This document shows positions 3,618 to 13,630 of a stretch of DNA of 13,630 nt, piece after piece. The notes under the pieces are model-generated. The model was not told the DNA's origin, made no database searches, and saw only the letters and a list, made by a program, of their open reading frames with translations. The stretch comes from a bacterium. Lineage in GTDB: Bacteria; BMS3Abin14. A program made the translations under genes and the position numbers. Where the stretch lies: the NCBI GenBank assembly GCA_020352595.1, contig CP070682.1, positions 1,684,738-1,698,367 on the forward strand, written 5' to 3'. Within the stretch, counting starts at the first letter, position 1. Each line of letters starts with the position of its first letter.

Positions 3618-4739
3618 TCACTCCACCCCCCTCGCATAGCACTGGACGATGTCCGGGGCCAGAGGCGACCCTTCCAGCACCTGGGCCCGGAACCGGCAGC
3701 CGCCGGCGCACTCGGCAAGCTGCGGACACCGGCAGCGGAGGCTGGAGAGGGGGACATGGGGAACCCTTTCCCAGACCCTCGCCAGCCCTTCCCGGACGTT
3801 GCCCGCCGGCTCGTGAAAATAGAAACCGCACTTGGCCGCTGTCCCGTCCGGACCTACGGTCATCAGGTGCGAACCGCATGAGAGCCCCCGGGCGCCCCCG
3901 TGGAACCCGCCCCCGTAGGCGTGCCGGAGCTTTTCACTCATGGCCCGCAGCTGCTCCGGCTCAAGGTCTTCGCCGGCCCACCTCCCTGCCGGGCAGGGCA
4001 CGTCGATGCTCCATTCCTGGACCCCCATTTCCCTGAGGAAGGCGTCCATCCTCTGGAACTCGTCCAGATTGTGCCGGTGCACCATGGTGGCCGCCGAGAC
4101 GGGGACCCCCGCACTCCTCAGGGCCCTGATCCCCTCCACGGCCCTGGCGAAGGAACCCGGGCCCCGGAGACGGTCGTGCCCTTCCTGCCAGCCGTCCAGG
4201 GAGACCTGGACCTGGTGGTAGACATCCCGCAGGTCCCGGGCTTCCCGGGGCCCTATCCACTCCCCATGGGTGATGAGCACCCGGCGCATCGGCCAACGGC
4301 CGAGATCGCCGCTCATCTCACGGAACAGGGGATGGCAGGCCGGCTCGCCACCGGAGACCATGACCTTGAGCCCCTGGGCGGCGGTGAACTCTTCCAGGAT
4401 ACGGTGGAAGGTGCCCCGGTCCATGTCCCTTTTGTCGGGGGGACCGAGGTAGCAGTGCCGGCAGGCCTTGTCGCACCGCCCCGTGATCTGCACCTCAAGG
4501 TAGCGCAGGGACGGGTCCGCGGCACTCCCCTCGAAGAAGGGCGGCCCCGAGCGCGGGGACTCCTGGGCCAGCCCCGCCTCCCTCAGCAGCTCACCGGCCT
4601 CCGGATCATTCCCGCCTGCCTGCAGCGCCAGGATCCTGTGGAAGCCCTCCTCGTCCAGGAGGTAAAGTTCATCGCTCTGGATGTCGTAGACGTGGGGCTC
4701 CTCCAGGCGCTTCAGGTAGCAGTGGTCCCTGAGAAACAA
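3618..4739 (-). CDS. Radical SAM/SPASM-domain enzyme
   Basis: The 373-residue protein has a radical SAM core with the 4Fe-4S motif CX3CX2C (Cys89, Cys93, Cys96; CDKACRHC). The SAM-binding GGEP motif is at 130-133. The C-terminal SPASM region holds Cys288, Cys304, Cys336, Cys338, Cys344, Cys348 and Cys367, ending in the typical ECAGGCR. These Cys normally bind one or two auxiliary clusters, as in PqqE and the sulfatase-maturing enzymes. The first 45 residues form a short domain of the kind seen before many RiPP-modifying enzymes, with a weak PqqD-like look. The substrate is unknown, and no precursor peptide or PqqD partner is visible nearby. The start is TTG at 4737-4739, supported by GGAGAG 7 bases upstream. 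It is transcribed divergently from hflX. Confidence 0.9.
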   Translation of the reverse strand: MFLRDHCYLKRLEEPHVYDIQSDELYLLDEEGFHRILALQAGGNDPEAGELLREAGLAQESPRSGPPFFEGSAADPSLRYLEVQITGRCDKACRHCYLGPPDKRDMDRGTFHRILEEFTAAQGLKVMVSGGEPACHPLFREMSGDLGRWPMRRVLITHGEWIGPREARDLRDVYHQVQVSLDGWQEGHDRLRGPGSFARAVEGIRALRSAGVPVSAATMVHRHNLDEFQRMDAFLREMGVQEWSIDVPCPAGRWAGEDLEPEQLRAMSEKLRHAYGGGFHGGARGLSCGSHLMTVGPDGTAAKCGFYFHEPAGNVREGLARVWERVPHVPLSSLRCRCPQLAECAGGCRFRAQVLEGSPLAPDIVQCYARGVE

Positions 4740-6604: not shown

Positions 6605-7555
6605 TTATCTCCTCGCTTTTTCGTAAAGATCCATCATCTCGGGGTTGACCAGGACGGGGTCCGGGGTGTGGTCCGGGTCCAGTGCGTAGGCGGCCCGCAG
6701 GTCCTCCAGGGCGGCGTCGTTCTTGCCGAAGGCGTACTGGCTGGCCGCCAGGAGCCTGTAGGCCCTGGCCTTCTCCCGGCCCTGGAGCCCCTTGGAAGCC
6801 TCATGGCCCATGGTCCAGGCGTCCCCGTATTCCCCAGACCGGAAGGCCGCCTCGGCCCGATCCAGAAGGCCCAGGGCCTCGACCCGCGCCGTATCCTCCC
6901 TGGGCGCGGATTCCGCCTGGGGCTTTGGGGGCGGGGTCGGCCTGGCGGCGGGGGCAGGGGATGTCTTCGCGGCCCGGGGTCGGGTGGGCGGAGGCGCCTC
7001 CTCCCGGGCGGGCCTGGGGAGCACATAGGGGACCAGCAGGCGTGACCCGACCGCGACCCTGGTGGCGTCGGCGATGCCGCTGGCGGCCAGAACGGGAGCG
7101 TACTCCTTCGGATCGCCGTAGAACCTCTCCGCCACCATGGAGACCGTCTCCCCGCGTTTGAGCCGGTAGGGGATGAGGAAGGGCAGGGTCAGCCGTGTGC
7201 CGGCGGGTACCCTGGCCGGATCCTGGATGCCGTTGGCCCAAACGATGAGGGAATAAAGGCGCGGGTCGCCCCACCGCCTCTTGGCCAGTGCGCTGAGGCT
7301 CTCCCCCTGGCCGAGAGCCACATTGTCGGCGTAGGGCAGCCTCACCCTGTCCCCCGGCGCCACCATGGTGGGGTCCTCTATACCGTTGTAGGCGCCGACG
7401 ACAGCGTACAGTTCCGCCTTCCCGTAGGCCTGCTGACAAATGAGCGACAGGGACTGTCCCTGCCTCACCGTCCGGGACACCTCACCGGCGTTCGACGGGA
7501 AAGGGAGTGCCAGCAAGAGGGCGAGCACCATCGTGGGGGCCGCCAGGGCTCTCAT
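6605..7555 (-). CDS. Exported protein with three LysM domains and C-terminal TPR-like region
   Basis: The 316-residue protein has a signal peptide (1-23, ending SNA). Three LysM-like repeats follow at about 27-73, 78-125 and 129-176. Each opens with a QGQS-, QGES- or RGET-type turn and closes with an RLxLP- or RLLVP-like strand. A Pro/Ala-rich linker runs from about 178 to 218. The C-terminal helical region (about 222-316) has the alternating Ala/Leu pattern of one or two TPR units, with ALDPDHTPDP as a typical motif. LysM domains bind peptidoglycan glycan chains, so the protein is probably a periplasmic wall-binding adaptor. Its ATG overlaps the kinase stop codon (ATGA, 7552-7555). This tight coupling suggests that it supplies the envelope-side input or scaffold for the kinase. 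It converges on hflX across a 29-bp gap without a clear terminator. Confidence 0.9.
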   Translation of the reverse strand: MRALAAPTMVLALLLALPFPSNAGEVSRTVRQGQSLSLICQQAYGKAELYAVVGAYNGIEDPTMVAPGDRVRLPYADNVALGQGESLSALAKRRWGDPRLYSLIVWANGIQDPARVPAGTRLTLPFLIPYRLKRGETVSMVAERFYGDPKEYAPVLAASGIADATRVAVGSRLLVPYVLPRPAREEAPPPTRPRAAKTSPAPAARPTPPPKPQAESAPREDTARVEALGLLDRAEAAFRSGEYGDAWTMGHEASKGLQGREKARAYRLLAASQYAFGKNDAALEDLRAAYALDPDHTPDPVLVNPEMMDLYEKARR

Positions 7556-8811
7556 CTCGCCTCCTCCAGCAGGTTCACCGAAACGATGGCCGCCTTGCCG
7601 TCGGACAGGTCGAGGGACAGGGTCCGCTCTCCCAGGTGGGGATTGCGAAGCACGAGGGTGTGGCGTCCCGAAGCCACCTGGAACGGCTCGGCGCGGGGCG
7701 TCAGACCGAGGGCCTTGCCGTCTACGATGACCTCGGCCCAGGGGTAGGCGTGGACTGTCAGGGCCACGGTGGCAGGCACCGGGGCCACGGCAGGCACGAT
7801 GGTCTCGCGCGTGGCCACCCTGGGCCAGACCACCACCAGGGCGACGGCCGCCATGACCAGGAGCACCAGGGCGGGAAGGGGGCTACGCCTGCGGCCCCCC
7901 ACCTCCAGGGCCTGTATGGGAATGGTGGCCTCTTCGGTCCCTGTCCGTGCGGCGGCCGCCACCACGGCCGAGACGGCATCCTCCGTGGAGGCCGCCCTCC
8001 TGGGCAGCGATCGTCCCAGGGCCGCGGCCAGGTCGTCCATGGTGGCGAACCTCTTCCTGGGTTTCTTCCTGAGGCACCTCATGATCACCCTGGCCAGGCG
8101 CCTGGGGACGTTGGGGGCGAGGCGCCGGACTCCCATGGGCCGCTTCTTGACGATGGCGTGGGTCACGGCCACGTCCGAGGGCCCCTGGAACGGCTTCTGG
8201 CCCGTCACCATCTCGTAGAGCACCACCCCGAGGCTGAAGATGTCCGAGGCCGGCCCCACGGTCTCGCCTCGGATCTGCTCCGGGGACATGTAGGAAGGTG
8301 TCCCGATGATCTGTCCGGTGGTGGTGAGGTCCGCCTGCCCGGTGACGAGGACGATGCCGAAATCGGCCAGCTTAACCTGTCCGCGGTTGGAGAGCATGAT
8401 GTTGCCCGGCTTGACGTCCCTGTGGATGATGCCCCGCTCATGGGCGTAGCTGAGGGCCTGACAGATGGCTATGCCGATCCTGGCCGCGGAGACGGGCCCG
8501 ACGGAGCCCAGCAGATAGAGGACCTCCTTGAGCTCCAGCCCGTCCACGAACTCCATGGCGATGTAGGCTTTCTTGGATTTTTCCCAGAAATCGTGGACGG
8601 TGATGATGCAGGGGTGGTGGAGGGAGGCGGCGGCCTTGGCCTCCAGCTGGAATCGCTCCAGGGCCTTCTGGTCGGAGCCCGTGCGGCTCAGGTCGAGCTC
8701 CTTGATGGCGACGATCCGGTCCAGGGATTCCTGGCGGGCACGGTATACCACCGCCATGCCACCCCGACCGATCTCGCCCAGAACGCGGTATTTGCCCAGA
8801 CTTTTCGACAT
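7552..8811 (-). CDS. Transmembrane Ser/Thr protein kinase with PEGA-like outer domain
   Basis: The 419-residue protein has a complete Hanks-type kinase domain (about 8-270). It shows the glycine loop GRGGMAVV (15-22), Lys37 in VAIK, Glu57, HRDVKPGN (130-137, catalytic Asp132), DFG (150-152) and SPE (176-178). It is an RD kinase with Thr-rich activation-loop residues (TTTGQIIGTPSY), so it is likely activated by autophosphorylation. A linker leads to one transmembrane helix (about 312-330). A PEGA-like periplasmic domain of about 70 residues follows (VIVDGKALGLTP at 361-372). The start is the ATG at 8809-8811, where kinase homology begins. The frame stays open 88 codons further, but that part is R/G/P-rich with no domain. 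No strong SD is visible. It is coupled by ATGA to the LysM gene and lies 313 bp below the vWA/FHA gene. Confidence 0.95.
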   Translation of the reverse strand: MSKSLGKYRVLGEIGRGGMAVVYRARQESLDRIVAIKELDLSRTGSDQKALERFQLEAKAAASLHHPCIITVHDFWEKSKKAYIAMEFVDGLELKEVLYLLGSVGPVSAARIGIAICQALSYAHERGIIHRDVKPGNIMLSNRGQVKLADFGIVLVTGQADLTTTGQIIGTPSYMSPEQIRGETVGPASDIFSLGVVLYEMVTGQKPFQGPSDVAVTHAIVKKRPMGVRRLAPNVPRRLARVIMRCLRKKPRKRFATMDDLAAALGRSLPRRAASTEDAVSAVVAAAARTGTEEATIPIQALEVGGRRRSPLPALVLLVMAAVALVVVWPRVATRETIVPAVAPVPATVALTVHAYPWAEVIVDGKALGLTPRAEPFQVASGRHTLVLRNPHLGERTLSLDLSDGKAAIVSVNLLEEAR

Positions 8812-9056
8812 TTTGTGATCGCGTGACGCCGGAGCTTCGCGGGAGCGGCGAGCCCGCATTCCTCCCTGACCATGACGCCCGGCTCCGCCGGGTGGACGTC
8901 CCATCGCCACATCCGGCCGGCGCCCGAGGGGGTTCCGGAGCCTGAGGTCTTCCCGTTCAGGCGGGCGCCCGGATCCAGGACGCCGGACGTCCCCGGCGAC
9001 TGCTGGCCGGTGCACACCTCGCCGGCCCGTTCCCGGGCTTAAAACCCTTTCACGCC

Positions 9057-9085
9057 TTGCTATCACAGTTGCCATGGGAGGTCAA
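9057..9085 (-). promoter_or_regulatory. Possible internal promoter for the kinase-LysM pair
   Basis: On the minus strand TTGACC (plus 9080-9085) is followed after 17 bp by TAGCAA (9057-9062), a fair -35 and a poor -10 box. Overlapping it is a sigma-54-like TGGCAA/TAGCA (9058-9074), but GG and GC are 11 rather than 10 bases apart, which normally abolishes activity. The gap size argues for some promoter here; which one is unclear. Confidence 0.27.
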
Positions 9086-9093
9086 ACAGATGG

Positions 9094-9123
9094 AGAGGCG
9101 GCCCGCCGGAGCGGACCGCCTCT
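9094..9123 (-). terminator. Hairpin directly after the vWA/FHA stop codon
   Basis: AGAGGCGG (9094-9101) pairs with CCGCCTCT (9116-9123), and the stem continues inward after one mismatch to a CCGGA loop. On the minus strand it begins one base after the stop codon. No T-run follows, so it may be a weak terminator, a processing site or an mRNA 3'-end stabiliser that partly separates the kinase from the upstream genes. Confidence 0.5.
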
Positions 9124-9124
9124 T

Positions 9125-11215
9125 TCAGCGGTCCCGGTACAGGATGGTCGTCTCGCCCCAGGTGAGCGTCTCTCCCGGCCGCAGCGTCCGCGTGCCGCTT
9201 ACCGGGCGGTTGTTCACCAGGAGCGTTTCGCCGCCGATGGACACGGGGACTGTCATCCCGTGGCGGGTGAGGACCCTTGTGAGCATCCGGGTCGCCTGGG
9301 CGGATCCTTCCACCAGCATCACGCGGTCCGCCGACAGGTTGAAGGAGGTCAGCCGGCCTGCCGCGACGAGGCCGATGGGCCCGAGAAGACCGAGGAGGAC
9401 CAGGAGCCAGGATCCGTGCCCGCTGGTGCCCATGAAGGTGGCCCGGGGGGAGAAGTAGCGGCTGCCCACCTCGACCTGTCCCGTCCTGGTAGACACGCGC
9501 AGGGCAACGGGGACCACCTGCTCAGCCCTCGAAGCGGCCCGGTAGCGGAAGAGCACTTCCCTGCTGATCTCCTCGGCCATCCCCTCGAAAAGGGTGGAGA
9601 GGACCTCCGGTTCGCTGGTATAGACGGCCTTCCCGCCCGTCCTCAGGGCCATGCCGGTGAGCCGGTTTCGCCGCGCGTCCGAACCGAGGCCCACGAACAT
9701 CAGGCTCACCCCTGAGCGCTCGGCGGCCAGGAGCGACTCCTCCATGGAGACGCTGCCGCGGTTGGCCTTGCCGTCGGTCATGGTGAGCACGGCCCTGCGC
9801 CCGGCGGCACCTTCAAGGAGCCCGACACCCGCCCGCACGGCATCGAAGAGGGCCGTGTGGCCCGAGGCGGTGATGCCGGTGGCGTATTGTCCCAACAGGT
9901 CGGGGGAGACGTCCCTCGCGCGCACGCTGACCTTGTCGCTGAACACTACCAGGTGGACGCGTGCGTCGGAGGGGATGGTCTGGGAGAAACGCGAGAGGGC
10001 CTTCTTCATCTCCTCCATCTTCTCGCCGGCCATGCTCTGGCTCACATCAAGGACCACCGAGACGGTCAGGGGCACATCCCTCACGCCCTGCTTCAGGTCG
10101 CGCACCTCCACCACGGAGGCTTCCCTGCCGGCCTCGGTCACGGTGACGCTCCTGATGTCGCTGGGGCGCGCCTCTCCGGGCAGGATGGCGTAAAGGTCCA
10201 CCATGGGGTAGCGGCTGGTGTCCACCTGGGTGATCCTCCACTCCGGAGAAGGTTCCGCTTCCGCGGCGGCCTGCACCGGTGCCACGAGGCAGAGAAGGAG
10301 CGCCACGGCTGCGGCGGCCCTCGCCCGGGCGATGCCCGGTGCGTTGATCCGCAGCAGACTGTCGCCGATGCGGATCAGGTCGCCATGCCTCAGCGCGGCC
10401 GCCTGCCCGGACACTTTCCTGTCGTTGAGCCTCAGGCCTCTGGGTGACCCCAGGTCCTCGATGACGGCCCTGCCCTCCCTGAAGGTGATGCGTGCGTGCC
10501 TCTGGGCCACGCCGGCGCCCGTCAAACGTACGGAGCATCTGCTGTCCGCGCCGATGACCGCACTCCTGCCCAGTGCGAACTCCGAGCCCCTTCCGGGCCC
10601 GTCGAGGATCTGGAGACGCAGATGCGCCATGGTCCTCTGGATCCAGGCGATGCCCAGGCCGGTGGCCCCGCCGAGCACCAGGAGCCCCATGATCAGGCTG
10701 CCCGTGCCGAAAAGGGGGCGAAACAGCTGCATGACCGTACCGCCGGCCAGCCCGCCGGCGAATCCGCCGAAGGAAGCGGGCAGCCACCGGTCACGCCCGG
10801 AGGCAAAGGGCACCGTGATGGCGAGACCCACGGCAAGGCCTGTGAGGCCCCAGCCGACGGCCGATCCCGCGGAGAGGGGAAGAGCGATGCCGGCCACGGC
10901 CGAATCCACGAGCCTCACGCCCCAGGCCATGAAAAGGGCCTGCCCTGCGGAAGCCCCGAGGGCGCCGCCCATGGCACCCGCAGCGGTGGAGACGACGGTC
11001 CTGGAAAGGGAGTGGCCCGGCCTCCCGTACCACATGTGCTCGAAGACGGTGATGAAACCCGCCAGGAACCCGCCCACCATGAGACCGAAAAGGACGCTCA
11101 CGGCCCAGGCTCCGTGTATGGACACCATGACGAGCCCGAGGGGGATGGCCGCGGCGAGCGCTGCCGCCGACCCCACGAAGGTCATCCTCGCGACACTGCT
11201 TCCCACGGCTTTCAT
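9125..11215 (-). CDS. Multi-pass membrane protein with FHA-like domain, periplasmic vWA domain and C-terminal FHA-like tail
   Basis: The 696-residue protein has about six Gly/Ala-rich hydrophobic helices in residues 10-192, then an FHA-like domain (about 200-291). A second hydrophobic stretch (300-318) resembles a cleavable signal peptide with an AxA end. A von Willebrand A domain follows (about 383-560) with a complete MIDAS: Asp390, Ser392 and Ser394 (DVSQS), Thr454 and Asp481. A further transmembrane helix (about 602-621) precedes a short tail that resembles the last strands of an FHA domain (VNNRPVSG, then GETLTWGETTILY). The FHA at 200-291 has lost the usual phosphothreonine-binding positions: GR is GA, SRRH is AQRH, and TNGT is PRGL. 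The ATG overlaps the stop of the zinc-ribbon/FHA gene (ATGA, 11212-11215). The vWA domain may bind a metal-dependent protein partner in the periplasm. The overall role is unknown. Confidence 0.88.
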   Translation of the reverse strand: MKAVGSSVARMTFVGSAAALAAAIPLGLVMVSIHGAWAVSVLFGLMVGGFLAGFITVFEHMWYGRPGHSLSRTVVSTAAGAMGGALGASAGQALFMAWGVRLVDSAVAGIALPLSAGSAVGWGLTGLAVGLAITVPFASGRDRWLPASFGGFAGGLAGGTVMQLFRPLFGTGSLIMGLLVLGGATGLGIAWIQRTMAHLRLQILDGPGRGSEFALGRSAVIGADSRCSVRLTGAGVAQRHARITFREGRAVIEDLGSPRGLRLNDRKVSGQAAALRHGDLIRIGDSLLRINAPGIARARAAAAVALLLCLVAPVQAAAEAEPSPEWRITQVDTSRYPMVDLYAILPGEARPSDIRSVTVTEAGREASVVEVRDLKQGVRDVPLTVSVVLDVSQSMAGEKMEEMKKALSRFSQTIPSDARVHLVVFSDKVSVRARDVSPDLLGQYATGITASGHTALFDAVRAGVGLLEGAAGRRAVLTMTDGKANRGSVSMEESLLAAERSGVSLMFVGLGSDARRNRLTGMALRTGGKAVYTSEPEVLSTLFEGMAEEISREVLFRYRAASRAEQVVPVALRVSTRTGQVEVGSRYFSPRATFMGTSGHGSWLLVLLGLLGPIGLVAAGRLTSFNLSADRVMLVEGSAQATRMLTRVLTRHGMTVPVSIGGETLLVNNRPVSGTRTLRPGETLTWGETTILYRDR

Positions 11216-11646
11216 GAGACACTCCCTTCCTCGAAACCGGCATGGAAGACGGCCTTCAGGTTCCCGAGGTAGATCACGTCACCCTCACTCAGTTCCACGG
11301 GCTCTCCCGGCGGGACCTTTTCCCTGTTGAGGATCGTCCCGTTCTTGCTGCCCAGGTCCTCCAGGGAGTAGCGGTCCCCGTCCCTGTAGATCACCGCGTG
11401 ACGGCGGGAAACCCCCTGCTCGTATCCACCGTTGATACCGAGGTCCACATCGGGGTCGATGGCTTCCAGGGGATCCCGTCTCCCCAGCAGCGTGGACTCG
11501 TGGACGAGTTCGAGGCGTCTGCCGTCCTCGAGCTCCAGGCAGGCGTCGTTGGCATGGACCGGCGCGCCGGCCTCTTCCCCCGCGCAGTCGGGGCAAAGCT
11601 CAAGGCCCTTTTCCATTTCCACTTCGCATCTCGGACAGATATTCAT
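11212..11646 (-). CDS. Small zinc-ribbon/FHA protein
   Basis: The 144-residue cytoplasmic protein begins with a zinc ribbon (Cys4, Cys7, Cys18, Cys21; CPRC and CPDC). It continues into an FHA domain (about 36-136). All residues needed to bind phosphothreonine are present: GR at 55-56, SRRH at 80-83 and KNGT at 101-104, with Asn107 following. The loop between GR and SRRH is about 10 residues longer than usual. It is a likely phospho-dependent adaptor for the nearby Ser/Thr kinase, comparable in size to GarA/Fha adaptors though not clearly an orthologue. The ATG is well supported by AGGAGG 6 bases upstream. It is the first gene behind a consensus sigma-54 promoter and is coupled by ATGA to the vWA/FHA gene. 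Confidence 0.92.
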   Translation of the reverse strand: MNICPRCEVEMEKGLELCPDCAGEEAGAPVHANDACLELEDGRRLELVHESTLLGRRDPLEAIDPDVDLGINGGYEQGVSRRHAVIYRDGDRYSLEDLGSKNGTILNREKVPPGEPVELSEGDVIYLGNLKAVFHAGFEEGSVS

Positions 11647-11696
11647 GGTCTACCTCCTGACGGTTGGTCGTTGGAATTGCTCCATGCCGGTGTCAG

Positions 11697-11712
11697 AGCA
11701 AGGGAGGTGCCA
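11697..11712 (-). promoter_or_regulatory. Consensus sigma-54 promoter of the FHA/vWA/kinase operon
   Basis: The minus strand reads TGGCACCTCCCTTGCT, a perfect match to TGGCAC-N5-TTGCW, with GG and GC exactly 10 bases apart. The expected start is near 11685, giving a leader of about 40 bases before the ATG at 11646. A sigma-54 activator gene ends 187 bp further upstream on the same strand. Such promoters need an upstream-bound activator; two perfect inverted repeats at 11805-11820 and 11861-11893 are candidate sites. Confidence 0.85.
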
Positions 11713-11716
11713 AAAA

Positions 11717-11751
11717 GGAAAGGGGAAGGTGGAAAGGGGAAAGTGTAAAGA
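11717..11751. repeat. Heptanucleotide-period degenerate array B
   Basis: Five 7-base units follow GGAAAGG with zero to two changes each. The array lies directly upstream of the sigma-54 promoter. Confidence 0.75.
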
Positions 11752-11768
11752 AAACGGCTATTTGGAGG

Positions 11769-11803
11769 GCTTGCTGCCTGGTGCCTGCTGCTTGTCGCCT
11801 GTT
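11769..11803. repeat. Heptanucleotide-period degenerate array C
   Basis: Five 7-base units follow GCCTGCT with zero to three changes each. The period equals that of arrays A, B and D, but the consensus is unrelated. Confidence 0.72.
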
Positions 11804-11804
11804 T

Positions 11805-11820
11805 TTTCCGCGTTCGGAAA
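11805..11820. promoter_or_regulatory. Perfect inverted repeat, candidate activator site
   Basis: TTTCCG (11805-11810) and CGGAAA (11815-11820) form a perfect dyad with a 4-base spacer. It is centred about 128 bp upstream of the predicted sigma-54 start. The distance suits an enhancer for the Fis-type HTH activator encoded next door. There is no direct evidence of binding. Confidence 0.35.
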
Positions 11821-11848
11821 TCGAACGGGTGGACGGAAAGGAAACGGT

Positions 11849-11897
11849 GTCTGGAGTATGGCGTCCAGAGTCTGCTGTCTAGGCTCTGGACGCTGGT
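11849..11897. repeat. Heptanucleotide-period degenerate array D
   Basis: Seven 7-base units follow GTCTGGA with zero to three changes each. The array ends one base before the stop codon of the sigma-54 activator (11899-11901, minus strand), much as array A abuts a stop codon. Confidence 0.75.
11861..11893. repeat. Perfect 10-bp inverted repeat inside array D
   Basis: GCGTCCAGAG (11861-11870) and CTCTGGACGC (11884-11893) are exact reverse complements with a 13-base spacer. The hairpin starts 5 bases past the activator's stop codon, so it may act as a terminator, although no T-run follows. It is also about 190 bp upstream of the predicted sigma-54 start, so it could be an enhancer. Confidence 0.6.
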
Positions 11898-11898
11898 T

Positions 11899-13173
11899 TC
11901 AGTCGATCCCGAACCGCTTCATCTTCGCGTACAGTGTGGAGGGTGCGATGCCCAGCAGGCGGGCGGCCTTTCTCTTGTTGCCTCCCGCCTTCCGCAGGGC
12001 GTCGGCGATGGCCGCGGCCTCCGCGTCCCTGAGGCTGCCCTCCGCCGGACGTTCCTGACCCGCGACGAAGACGGGAAGGTCCGCGGCGCCGATGGACCCC
12101 GACCGGTTCAGGGCGGCCGCCGTCTCCAGGACGTTCCTCAGCTCCCGGACGTTTCCCGGCCAGGAGTGACCCTTCAGGGCCTTCAGGGCGCCATCCTCCA
12201 GGGCCAGGCCTCCCCTGCCGCGGGAAAGCTCCTCCAGGAAGTGGCGGGCCAGAAACTCGATGTCCTCGGGGCGTTCCCTCAGCGAGGGCAGTTCCACCCT
12301 GGCCGCTGACACCCTGAAGAACAGATCCCTTCGAAAACGGTCCTCGCGCACGAGGGAGCCCAGGTCCCTGTTGGTGGCCGCCACGAAGCGGACGTTGCTC
12401 TTTTTCAGCTCCGCTGTGCCGAGGCGGCGGTACTCCCTGCGGTCGAGGAGGCGCAGCAGCTTGGGCTGGAGGTTGAGGGGCAGTTCCCCGATCTCGTCGA
12501 GGAAAAGGGTACCACCCTCCGCCTCCCCAATGGCCCCGGGCCGGGAATCCGTCGCGCCCGTGAAAGCCCCCCTGGCGTAACCGAACAGTTCGCTCTCCAT
12601 GAGCTCGGCCGGCACGGTGGAGCAGTCGAAGATGATGAAAGGCCTGGCCGTCCTGGGACTGCGCTCGTGCAGGGCTCTCGCGGCGAGTTCCTTCCCCGTT
12701 CCCGTTTCCCCCTCTATGAGGACGGTCACGTCGCTGGCGGCCAGACCCTCCAGAAGCGCGAAGGCGCGCTTCATGGGCTCGCTTCTGGCCACCATCTCCC
12801 CGAAGGCGGAAGGCGCTCCTTCCCGGCGGAGCTCTCCTCCCTGACCCGGGACGAAGACCATGGAGGTCTTGCCCATGGTGAGGACAGCGCCGTCCCGCAG
12901 ATACGCCCGGTCCACCCGGACGCCGTTGAGGTAGGTCCCGTTGGTGCTCCCCAGATCCTGGAGGAGAAACCCCTGGGCCGTCCTTGAAACCTCGGCGTGC
13001 CTGCGGGAAACCGTGGGATCGCTCAGGCAAAGGCCGCTCTCGGGGCGGCTGCCGATGGTGAGGGTGCCCTCGATCTGCCTGGCCGCACCCTTGTCGGGCC
13101 CCTCCCGCACCAGCAGGGTGGGACTTTCCACGGAACCGGTCCCGTCACCCGAGATCTTTCGCGTCAGGCTCAT
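11899..13173 (-). CDS. FHA-domain sigma-54-dependent transcriptional activator
   Basis: The 424-residue protein has an N-terminal FHA domain (about 19-107) in place of the usual receiver or PAS input. SRRH is at 56-59 and TNGT at 77-80, but the pocket Arg after Gly41 is Ser42, with Arg at 43. The AAA+ domain (about 125-365) has Walker A GETGTGKE (155-162), the sigma-54-contacting GAFTGA loop (202-207) and Walker B LFLDE (223-227). A Fis-type helix-turn-helix occupies about 385-424. It activates sigma-54 promoters and probably senses phosphorylation. The start is uncertain. ATG 13171-13173 is chosen for domain fit; ATG 13192-13194 directly abuts the SD sequence GAGGAGG, which is too close. A sigma-54 promoter lies just downstream, before the kinase operon, its likely target. 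Confidence 0.95.
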   Translation of the reverse strand: MSLTRKISGDGTGSVESPTLLVREGPDKGAARQIEGTLTIGSRPESGLCLSDPTVSRRHAEVSRTAQGFLLQDLGSTNGTYLNGVRVDRAYLRDGAVLTMGKTSMVFVPGQGGELRREGAPSAFGEMVARSEPMKRAFALLEGLAASDVTVLIEGETGTGKELAARALHERSPRTARPFIIFDCSTVPAELMESELFGYARGAFTGATDSRPGAIGEAEGGTLFLDEIGELPLNLQPKLLRLLDRREYRRLGTAELKKSNVRFVAATNRDLGSLVREDRFRRDLFFRVSAARVELPSLRERPEDIEFLARHFLEELSRGRGGLALEDGALKALKGHSWPGNVRELRNVLETAAALNRSGSIGAADLPVFVAGQERPAEGSLRDAEAAAIADALRKAGGNKRKAARLLGIAPSTLYAKMKRFGID

Positions 13174-13410: not shown

Positions 13411-13630
13411 ATGGACATCAAGGAACTCGAGAGCAAAACGGTTGCCCAGCTCAGGGACATGGCCAAGGAGATGGGTCTTACCGGATACTCCTCCATGAAG
13501 AAGGCCGACCTCGTCACCGCCATCTCCGGCGCCCCCAAGGCTCCCGCCGAGGCCCCTCCGGAGCCGGTGGCTGAAGAGACGGCCCCGGAACCCGAGGCCG
13601 CGGCCGAGGAGGCGCCGTTAGAAGCTGAGG
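13411..13630 (+). CDS. Rho N-terminal-domain protein, 5' part
   Basis: Seventy-three codons are visible before the window ends. Residues 1-40 (from MDIKELESKTVAQL to KKADLVTAI) fit the Rho-N/SAP-like helical fold, a small nucleic-acid-binding module. After it comes a low-complexity acidic stretch rich in Ala, Pro and Glu. The start is firm: AAAAGGAG (13397-13404) lies 6 bases before ATG. Small stand-alone Rho-N proteins are common in deltaproteobacteria. The gene could also be an unusual Rho factor with an acidic insert, which only the missing 3' part can decide. It is divergent from the sigma-54 activator and has its own promoter candidate. Confidence 0.85.
   Translation, partial: MDIKELESKTVAQLRDMAKEMGLTGYSSMKKADLVTAISGAPKAPAEAPPEPVAEETAPEPEAAAEEAPLEAE

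Follow-up and report, generated by a model that had tools for sequence, protein, structure and literature searches.

We describe a five-gene cluster in a 13,630-nucleotide stretch of DNA (the window; GenBank assembly GCA_020352595.1, contig CP070682.1, positions 1,684,738 to 1,698,367 of the forward strand) from a bacterium of the GTDB lineage BMS3Abin14. We propose that it is a lineage-conserved, two-part membrane signalling cluster that works by Ser/Thr phosphorylation and has a dedicated sigma-54 switch, a reading to which we assign a probability of about 0.55. The genes all lie on the minus strand and run in the order Act (a sigma-54 activator), FHAzr (a zinc-ribbon/FHA protein), a vWA/FHA membrane protein, a Ser/Thr kinase and a LysM protein (Table 1); the positions and main domains given in a first-pass annotation of this DNA agree with the open reading frame (ORF) list and with Pfam. 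The gene order, the architecture of the switch, a second promoter-like element inside the cluster, and the intact residues of the kinase and of the phosphothreonine readers are established at the level of sequence. Together they make a conserved, well-switched signalling cluster that combines known kinds of part, namely an FHA-type sigma-54 activator and a kinase/FHA/vWA module. No description of this gene set was found in the titles and abstract beginnings of the open-licence PubMed Central (PMC) literature.

The window genome is a single contig of 2.16 Mb with a completeness of 73.7%, and its phylum-level group consists of 12 genomes, all of one family, to which the group counts below refer. 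Full-length or nearly full-length orthologues of the vWA/FHA protein are present in 10 of the 12, kinase orthologues in 11 (partial in G005 and G008) and Act orthologues in eight, while nine genomes carry a sixth gene between those for the vWA protein and the kinase, encoding a small FHA protein, sFHA (at least 57% identical to the G009 query). The first-pass annotation had called for a check on related genomes, and this came out in its favour for the downstream part: the order FHAzr-vWA-(sFHA)-kinase-LysM, together with the sigma-54 promoter, is kept wherever the contig allows, except in G008 and G004. In the former (locus L042) the kinase is a fragment, cut short, and no LysM match was found within 19.9 kb of the locus; in the latter the two halves of the cluster sit on different contigs. 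Where the halves part, one and the same ORF start, read as transposase-like, is found on both G004 contigs (8509-9027 in L101, and the end of L043). The activator is held less tightly, as no more than four of its eight genomes (G000, G001, G002 and G004) have Act 1.5 kb or less from the cluster, and in G003, G007, G008 and G009 it is located elsewhere.

When the 8000 best word-sharing candidates from a set of 5.8 billion proteins were scored against the vWA/FHA protein, 43 matched: one at 28% identity and the other 42, among them the window's own, at 52-100%; orthologues also occur among unnamed metagenome proteins. Genome matches outside the group were mostly to the vWA part or the FHA part alone, and at 1e-15 the vWA/FHA profile matched 79 of the 386 genomes sampled (374 of which lie outside the group), 10 of these being group members.

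The switch stands directly upstream of FHAzr. As the first-pass annotation had it, a sigma-54 promoter precedes the last four genes, matching all 12 scored positions of the -24/-12 consensus, although it is not the sole promoter-like element there. All eight loci compared have a sigma-54-like site upstream of FHAzr, 62-85 bases 5' of the ATG and scoring 9-12 of 12; the pattern has three sites in the whole window genome. In L044 the aligned site scores 9 and is outscored by one at -158 (score 10) within the 300 nt, and in 20,000 random 300-base windows of the same loci, real sites included, the best score reached at least 9 in 3,007 and at least 10 in 572. The score alone is therefore not rare, and the weight rests on position and spacing. 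All eight loci also have a palindrome, GTTCG-N5-CGAAC, whose end is 97-99 nt upstream of the sigma-54 site; this counts the degenerate copy of G001 (L046), which at the common distance keeps 7 of 10 positions and has a better copy (8) 19 nt further up. Such a second copy, 19 bases further upstream, is found in four loci, being weaker in G003 and G009, equal in G007 and better in G001. Palindrome scores of 9 or 10 arose in 280 of the 20,000 random windows, real sites included. The mismatch-free form, GTTCGATNNYCGAAC, occurs at seven places in the 12 genomes, five of them at this cluster, and the copy listed in Table 1 is the only mismatch-free one in the window genome.

The combined pattern (palindrome, 97-101 bases, sigma-54 site) is found at nine places in the 12 genomes, eight of them at this cluster, and its reversed control at none; since the pattern was built from the eight cluster sites, their recovery is by construction, and the result is the near-absence of other sites. 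The eight genomes that have it are the eight with an Act orthologue. The ninth site, in G002, precedes the gene of a 191-aa protein with a bacterial SH3 domain (SH3_3) between hydrophobic stretches (L120, 760-1335), which thus stands behind a second copy of the palindrome-spacing-sigma-54 switch. An upstream site at a fixed distance from a -24/-12 promoter has the architecture of control by a bacterial enhancer-binding protein (bEBP), and we infer that Act binds the palindrome. Because the palindrome is conserved at a fixed distance, control of the cluster by the activator, as claimed in the first-pass annotation, is likely, though the 12-genome pattern search did not find the combined site ahead of the Act gene itself. 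The conserved palindrome as a putative activator site, its spacing and its near-single target are new here.

Act has the parts of a bEBP, with GAFTGA in its translation and a C-terminal Fis-type helix-turn-helix (HTH) that is almost invariant across the eight orthologues (Pfam: FHA 3.2e-18; Sigma54_activat, PF00158, 4.4e-62; HTH_8, PF02954, 2e-14). Its FHA domain is not of the canonical phosphothreonine-reading kind, judged by a rule that looks for the GR, SxxH and NG residues, which the accessible part of one source lists for phosphothreonine-reading FHA domains (PMC1262709). All eight orthologues have IGS, IGT or LGT where IGR is expected, so that the Arg of GR is missing, and retain SxxH and NG. 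This weakens the idea of the first-pass annotation that marks set by the kinase are read by the activator's FHA domain, which may contact a partner protein instead of phosphothreonine. A second FHA-type activator paralogue, 42-47% identical, is present in eight group genomes. We disfavour it, not firmly, as a general binder of the palindrome: it was not seen at E 1e-60 in G000 and G008, two incomplete genomes that both have the palindrome site.

A second conserved element divides the cluster in two. It comes after the vWA gene, ahead of that for sFHA or the kinase, and follows an exact pattern in nine of nine loci (Table 1); G004 keeps it with one change, and no other match was found in 494,666 strand-bases of the loci analysed. 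Its sequence loosely resembles an extended -10 promoter. The hairpin ahead of it in the window folds at -39.3 kcal/mol for 85 nt (z -3.6), and a hairpin-like structure with z -3.7 or lower precedes the element in six of the nine loci and is absent from three. Because of this element, with a hairpin ahead of it in most loci, production of the kinase and the LysM protein appears separable from sigma-54: most likely, FHAzr and the vWA protein are the primary targets of sigma-54, and the kinase and LysM protein can be made without it. The splitting of the cluster by a second conserved promoter-like element is likewise new here.

By the residue rule given above, FHAzr and sFHA qualify as predicted phosphothreonine readers, and Act and the first FHA domain of the vWA protein do not. 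The FHA domain of FHAzr (2.1e-19 in Pfam) follows a CPRC...CPDC motif that is zinc-ribbon-like by reading. Its GR, SRRH and NG residues are intact, GR/SxxH/NG is kept in all eight aligned orthologues, and the four Cys are present in six of the eight, including the window's own, and lost in G003 and G009 (as a motif only). Eight of the nine sFHA orthologues were aligned; all eight have GR/SxxH/NG and an N-terminal [DE]FxPTxx[IM] motif, and the ninth, of G004, reads GFEPTHTM. In this respect sFHA resembles GarA, OdhI and FhaB, likewise small FHA proteins with an N-terminal Thr motif, with scores below the NCBIfam cut-offs (sFHA of G009: 69.5 bits against 200 for the OdhI model, 74.1 against 125 for FhaB). 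This sixth, GarA-like gene of the relatives is also new here.

The window itself appears to lack sFHA. The vWA and kinase genes are 313 bases apart in the window, where eight relatives have 553-732, and no FHA homology is seen in between, with tblastn searches using six sFHA sequences giving only E 2.5 or worse. We rejected a gene broken by frameshifts, as the three minus-strand frames of 8800-9130 have no FHA pattern and the tblastn matches are poor. Nor was an orthologue found elsewhere in the genome (73.7% complete): the top hit there, 41% identical over 103 of 138 aa, belongs to a longer frame that has an internal stop. Since sFHA was not found there, FHAzr would be the only canonical phosphothreonine reader of the cluster in the window genome.

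The FHAzr gene overlaps that of the vWA protein by 4 nt. The latter's product has an N-terminal helix bundle, an FHA domain (1.9e-14 in Pfam), a transmembrane helix, a vWA domain (5.4e-13) with a metal-ion-dependent adhesion site (MIDAS), a second transmembrane helix and a degenerate, FHA-like C-terminal piece; the hydrophobic helices were placed by reading and with a structure model, which is poor in 623-662. The MIDAS residues D390, S392, S394, T454 and D481 are invariant in 17 sequences, in which the first FHA domain has no Arg after the Gly and a variable Ser position. The C-terminal 65 residues or so align with the intact second FHA domain of a relative from Nitrospirae, because of which they look like a worn-down FHA domain.

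The kinase (Pkinase, 7e-57) has a conserved start at 8811, to which the long ORF start at 9075 was corrected, and HRD and DFG are kept in all eight aligned sequences. The PEGA-like outer domain of the first-pass annotation survives as a segment conserved among the aligned kinases, but PEGA (PF08308) is unmatched in the window kinase even at E 1, stays below its 20.8-bit cut-off in two group relatives scanned (18.4 and 15.8 bits; E 0.0021 and 0.014) and is absent from three kinases scanned outside the group. The best family model is that of PknB/PASTA, at 330 bits against a cut-off of 450, with a match that covers the kinase part only; no PASTA repeat was matched in the protein. The kinase gene overlaps that of the LysM protein by 4 nt. 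For the latter, described as an exported triple-LysM/TPR protein, LysM is supported (1.9e-7, with Phage_tail_X at 1.4e-5 on the apparent third LysM-like repeat), the three repeats and the signal peptide stand by reading, and TPR falls below its cut-off at 0.011. The first-pass annotation saw no PP2C phosphatase, and this extends to the whole group as far as PF13672 goes: PP2C_2 (E 0.001) matched in none of the 12 genomes and, as a control, in 7 of 14 named genomes, other PP2C and phosphatase families not having been searched. Group genomes each have several Ser/Thr kinases.

Related arrangements occur more widely. An alignment-based search of genome contigs with the vWA/FHA protein gave seven loci, in one of which, L055, the similarity is confined to a portion of the vWA domain. 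On a contig of Nitrospirae bacterium GWC2_56_14 (L054, MHDY01000170.1) a related island has, side by side, genes for the full-length 28% relative of the vWA/FHA protein, a kinase, an FHA-type activator (45% to Act over 411 aa), a small FHA protein, a PP2C and a second kinase (43% over 336 aa). Unlike our cluster, this island thus has a PP2C and a second kinase, its vWA protein has an intact C-terminal FHA domain and a zinc-ribbon-like motif, and no match to the LysM protein was found in the 12.3 kb covered. Recognition of this related, PP2C-bearing island is new here as well. In the sample of 386 genomes a profile of helix bundle and FHA domain matched over near-whole length at no fewer than 10 places in nine outside genomes of five families (G314, G361 twice, G071, G212, G302, G163, G232, G091 and G015), and three of these places (G314, G361:C39 and G071) were themselves rows of the profile; L151 of G027, which shares the FHA part only, was excluded from the alignment. 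In G314 and G361 a kinase, a bundle-FHA protein and a vWA protein (with a weak, sub-threshold FHA-like end) are encoded in a row by separate genes, and in G071 the bundle-FHA gene adjoins that of a vWA protein with zinc ribbons. In three loci of one family (G232, G091 and the second of G361; L184, L185 and L187) a bundle-FHA gene and a second FHA gene come directly after ftsA-ftsZ, as identified by Pfam; these proteins share 25-29% identity with the G361 bundle protein and are distant relatives of the N-terminus of the window protein. G027 has FHA and vWA-FHA genes without a helix bundle, two FHA genes precede the vWA gene in G015 and G163, and FHA genes of G302 lie near a PP2C-like gene. A search with the G361 bundle-FHA protein returned 46 matches; in 26 the identity is 32-90% across 82% or more of the query's length. 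Because its parts are separate genes elsewhere, the 696-aa protein of the window looks like a fused form.

Among working systems, the nearest analogue is the ArnA-ArnB-ArnC set of the Sulfolobus archaellum network, whose members jointly regulate gene expression and with which the cluster has in common a zinc-ribbon and FHA protein, a MIDAS vWA domain and a Ser/Thr kinase. In the accessible parts of two sources, a zinc-finger/FHA protein, a vWA protein and a kinase form a switch in which ArnA holds ArnB through its zinc finger, and through its FHA domain as well once ArnB is phosphorylated (PMC12852372, PMC6509490). The best sequence match of our vWA profile among PDB structures is chain A of the ArnAB complex (8s05_A, 8.5e-16); structure comparison, which chiefly covered the vWA part of the model, shows a vWA fold, with ArnB not ranked above other vWA domains. 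In contrast to Arn, the cluster is bacterial, its vWA domain sits in a multi-pass membrane protein with FHA domains of its own, and it adds LysM, PEGA-like outer parts and a sigma-54 activator; no C-terminal helix bundle like that of ArnB was recognised after the vWA domain, where the model is poor. Turning to the activator, Jelsbak and co-workers reportedly described in 2005 FHA-type enhancer-binding proteins of Myxococcus xanthus with the FHA, AAA+ and HTH architecture seen in Act. In contrast to these, Act appears tied to one promoter with a defined palindrome, and its FHA domain is without the GR Arg.

On these grounds we propose a model for the cluster. The kinase and the LysM protein would be made at a basal level and would monitor the envelope, and the kinase would phosphorylate Thr sites, among them probably the PTxxI/M motif at the N-terminus of sFHA in genomes that have this gene. 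FHAzr and sFHA, with their intact phosphothreonine pockets, would read these marks, FHAzr working with the vWA protein as ArnA does with ArnB in archaea. Act would bind the palindrome and fire the sigma-54 promoter, inducing the reader/vWA half on demand, and two transcripts would result, a sigma-54 unit (FHAzr and vWA) and a second unit of (sFHA)-kinase-LysM. The envelope sensing put forward by the first-pass annotation fits the LysM repeats, the weak PEGA-like segment, the SH3 gene that this switch precedes in G002 and the position of distant relatives next to ftsAZ, and as a function it may be so read. Taken to its full extent, the model would make the cluster a bacterial, membrane-anchored counterpart of Arn, in which the marks of an envelope kinase on the transmembrane vWA/FHA protein are read by the zinc-ribbon/FHA and small FHA proteins while the sigma-54 activator induces the reader half, and one branch of a wider kinase/helix-bundle-FHA/vWA system, fused or split, with or without PP2C and partly beside ftsA-ftsZ. 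This we advance only tentatively.

Other explanations must be weighed against the model. Control of cell division or wall synthesis by phosphorylation, with protein activity as the main output and Act setting the dose of the vWA protein and FHAzr on an unrelated cue, is one that we consider unlikely but worth keeping in view. PknB-FhaA/FhaB-PBP circuits are comparable, and the best family model of our kinase, the match of the FHA parts to FhaB and OdhI models (all below cut-off) and the distant bundle/FHA relatives right after ftsA-ftsZ in three loci of one family point this way. However, the kinase has no PASTA match, no division gene was recognised beside the cluster in the window, and the ftsAZ-linked proteins are distant in sequence. 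The first-pass annotation proposed instead that wall state sets the kinase, that the FHA domain of Act reads the resulting marks and that the operon then makes more kinase in a self-reinforcing loop. Here the kinase does lie downstream of the sigma-54 site on the same strand, Act does carry an FHA domain and LysM is present. Positive feedback is nevertheless only a guess, weakened because Act lacks the reading Arg, the combined site does not precede its gene and the kinase, with its own conserved promoter-like element and the hairpin commonly ahead of it, need not depend on sigma-54; the unlinked Act of four genomes also counts against it, and we regard it as quite improbable.

The missing phosphothreonine residues in Act and in the first FHA domain of the vWA protein would suit a mostly non-phosphorylation scaffold as well, in which FHA domains are plain protein-binding units and the vWA/helix-bundle protein is an envelope structure under sigma-54, as would the lack of a PF13672 PP2C partner. 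Against this stand the conserved kinase with HRD and DFG intact and the pocket kept by FHAzr and sFHA in all eight aligned sequences of each, and we hold it to be very unlikely. We give least credence, next to none, to a secretion-type threonine-phosphorylation pathway like PpkA-PppA-Fha of type VI secretion. That pathway has kinase, vWA and FHA in common with the cluster (for the architecture of PpkA, the accessible part of PMC1262709), the sigma-54 activator completes the same domain set, and the FHA parts match the TagH model below threshold. Yet kinase and vWA domain are separate proteins here, from separate genes, no PF13672 PP2C is present in the 12 genomes, and no secretion gene was recognised among ten scanned window proteins, a genome-wide Tss search not having been made.

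Table 1. Features of the cluster, with positions counted from the first base of the window
Feature	Position	Strand	Basis
Act, sigma-54 activator, FHA + AAA+ (GAFTGA) + Fis-type HTH, 424 aa	11899..13173	-	Pfam
Putative upstream activator site, palindrome GTTCGATTTCCGAAC	11812..11826	-	kept in 8/8 loci
Sigma-54 -24/-12 site TTGGCACCTCCCTTGCT	11697..11713	-	12/12 scored consensus positions
FHAzr, zinc-ribbon + FHA protein, 144 aa	11212..11646	-	Pfam and motif
vWA/FHA membrane protein, 696 aa	9125..11215	-	Pfam, alignment, structure model
Strong hairpin just 3' of the vWA stop codon, resembling a terminator or attenuator, without a distinct U run	9094..9123	-	folding
Conserved promoter-like element TTTGACCTC-N12-TGN-TAGC(A/T)	9058..9086	-	9/9 loci, exact pattern
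Place of sFHA in relatives, gene not present in window	8812..9057	-	homology search
Kin, Ser/Thr kinase, transmembrane helix + PEGA-like outer segment, 419 aa	7552..8811	-	Pfam, alignment
LysM/TPR-like protein, signal-peptide-like N-terminus, three LysM-like repeats by reading, 316 aa	6605..7555	-	Pfam

The rest of the window holds genes of other kinds. Divergent from Act lies the N-terminal part of a Rho-type gene (13411-13630; Rho_N 1.1e-13). At 3618-4739 a radical SAM gene, for which no NCBIfam model was above cut-off among the best 25, is flanked by HflX and a response regulator-PilZ gene; in G002 (L041) the corresponding stretch is too short for it and has no match to it. At 292-2807 a doubled-CXXCH multihaem cytochrome (Paired_CXXCH_1, seven stretches) adjoins an ExbB-like gene by Pfam, and an ExbD-like gene, by reading, is also beside it.

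To our knowledge, the cues of FHA-type sigma-54 activators are poorly known. Since the cluster pairs a single activator with a single palindrome at a single spacing and, in essence, a single target operon, it would make the question of the activator's cue directly testable with purified parts. Furthermore, in several bacterial groups the wider family would connect Ser/Thr kinases with FHA readers and membrane vWA proteins, and it suggests a logic in common with the archaeal phospho-switch.

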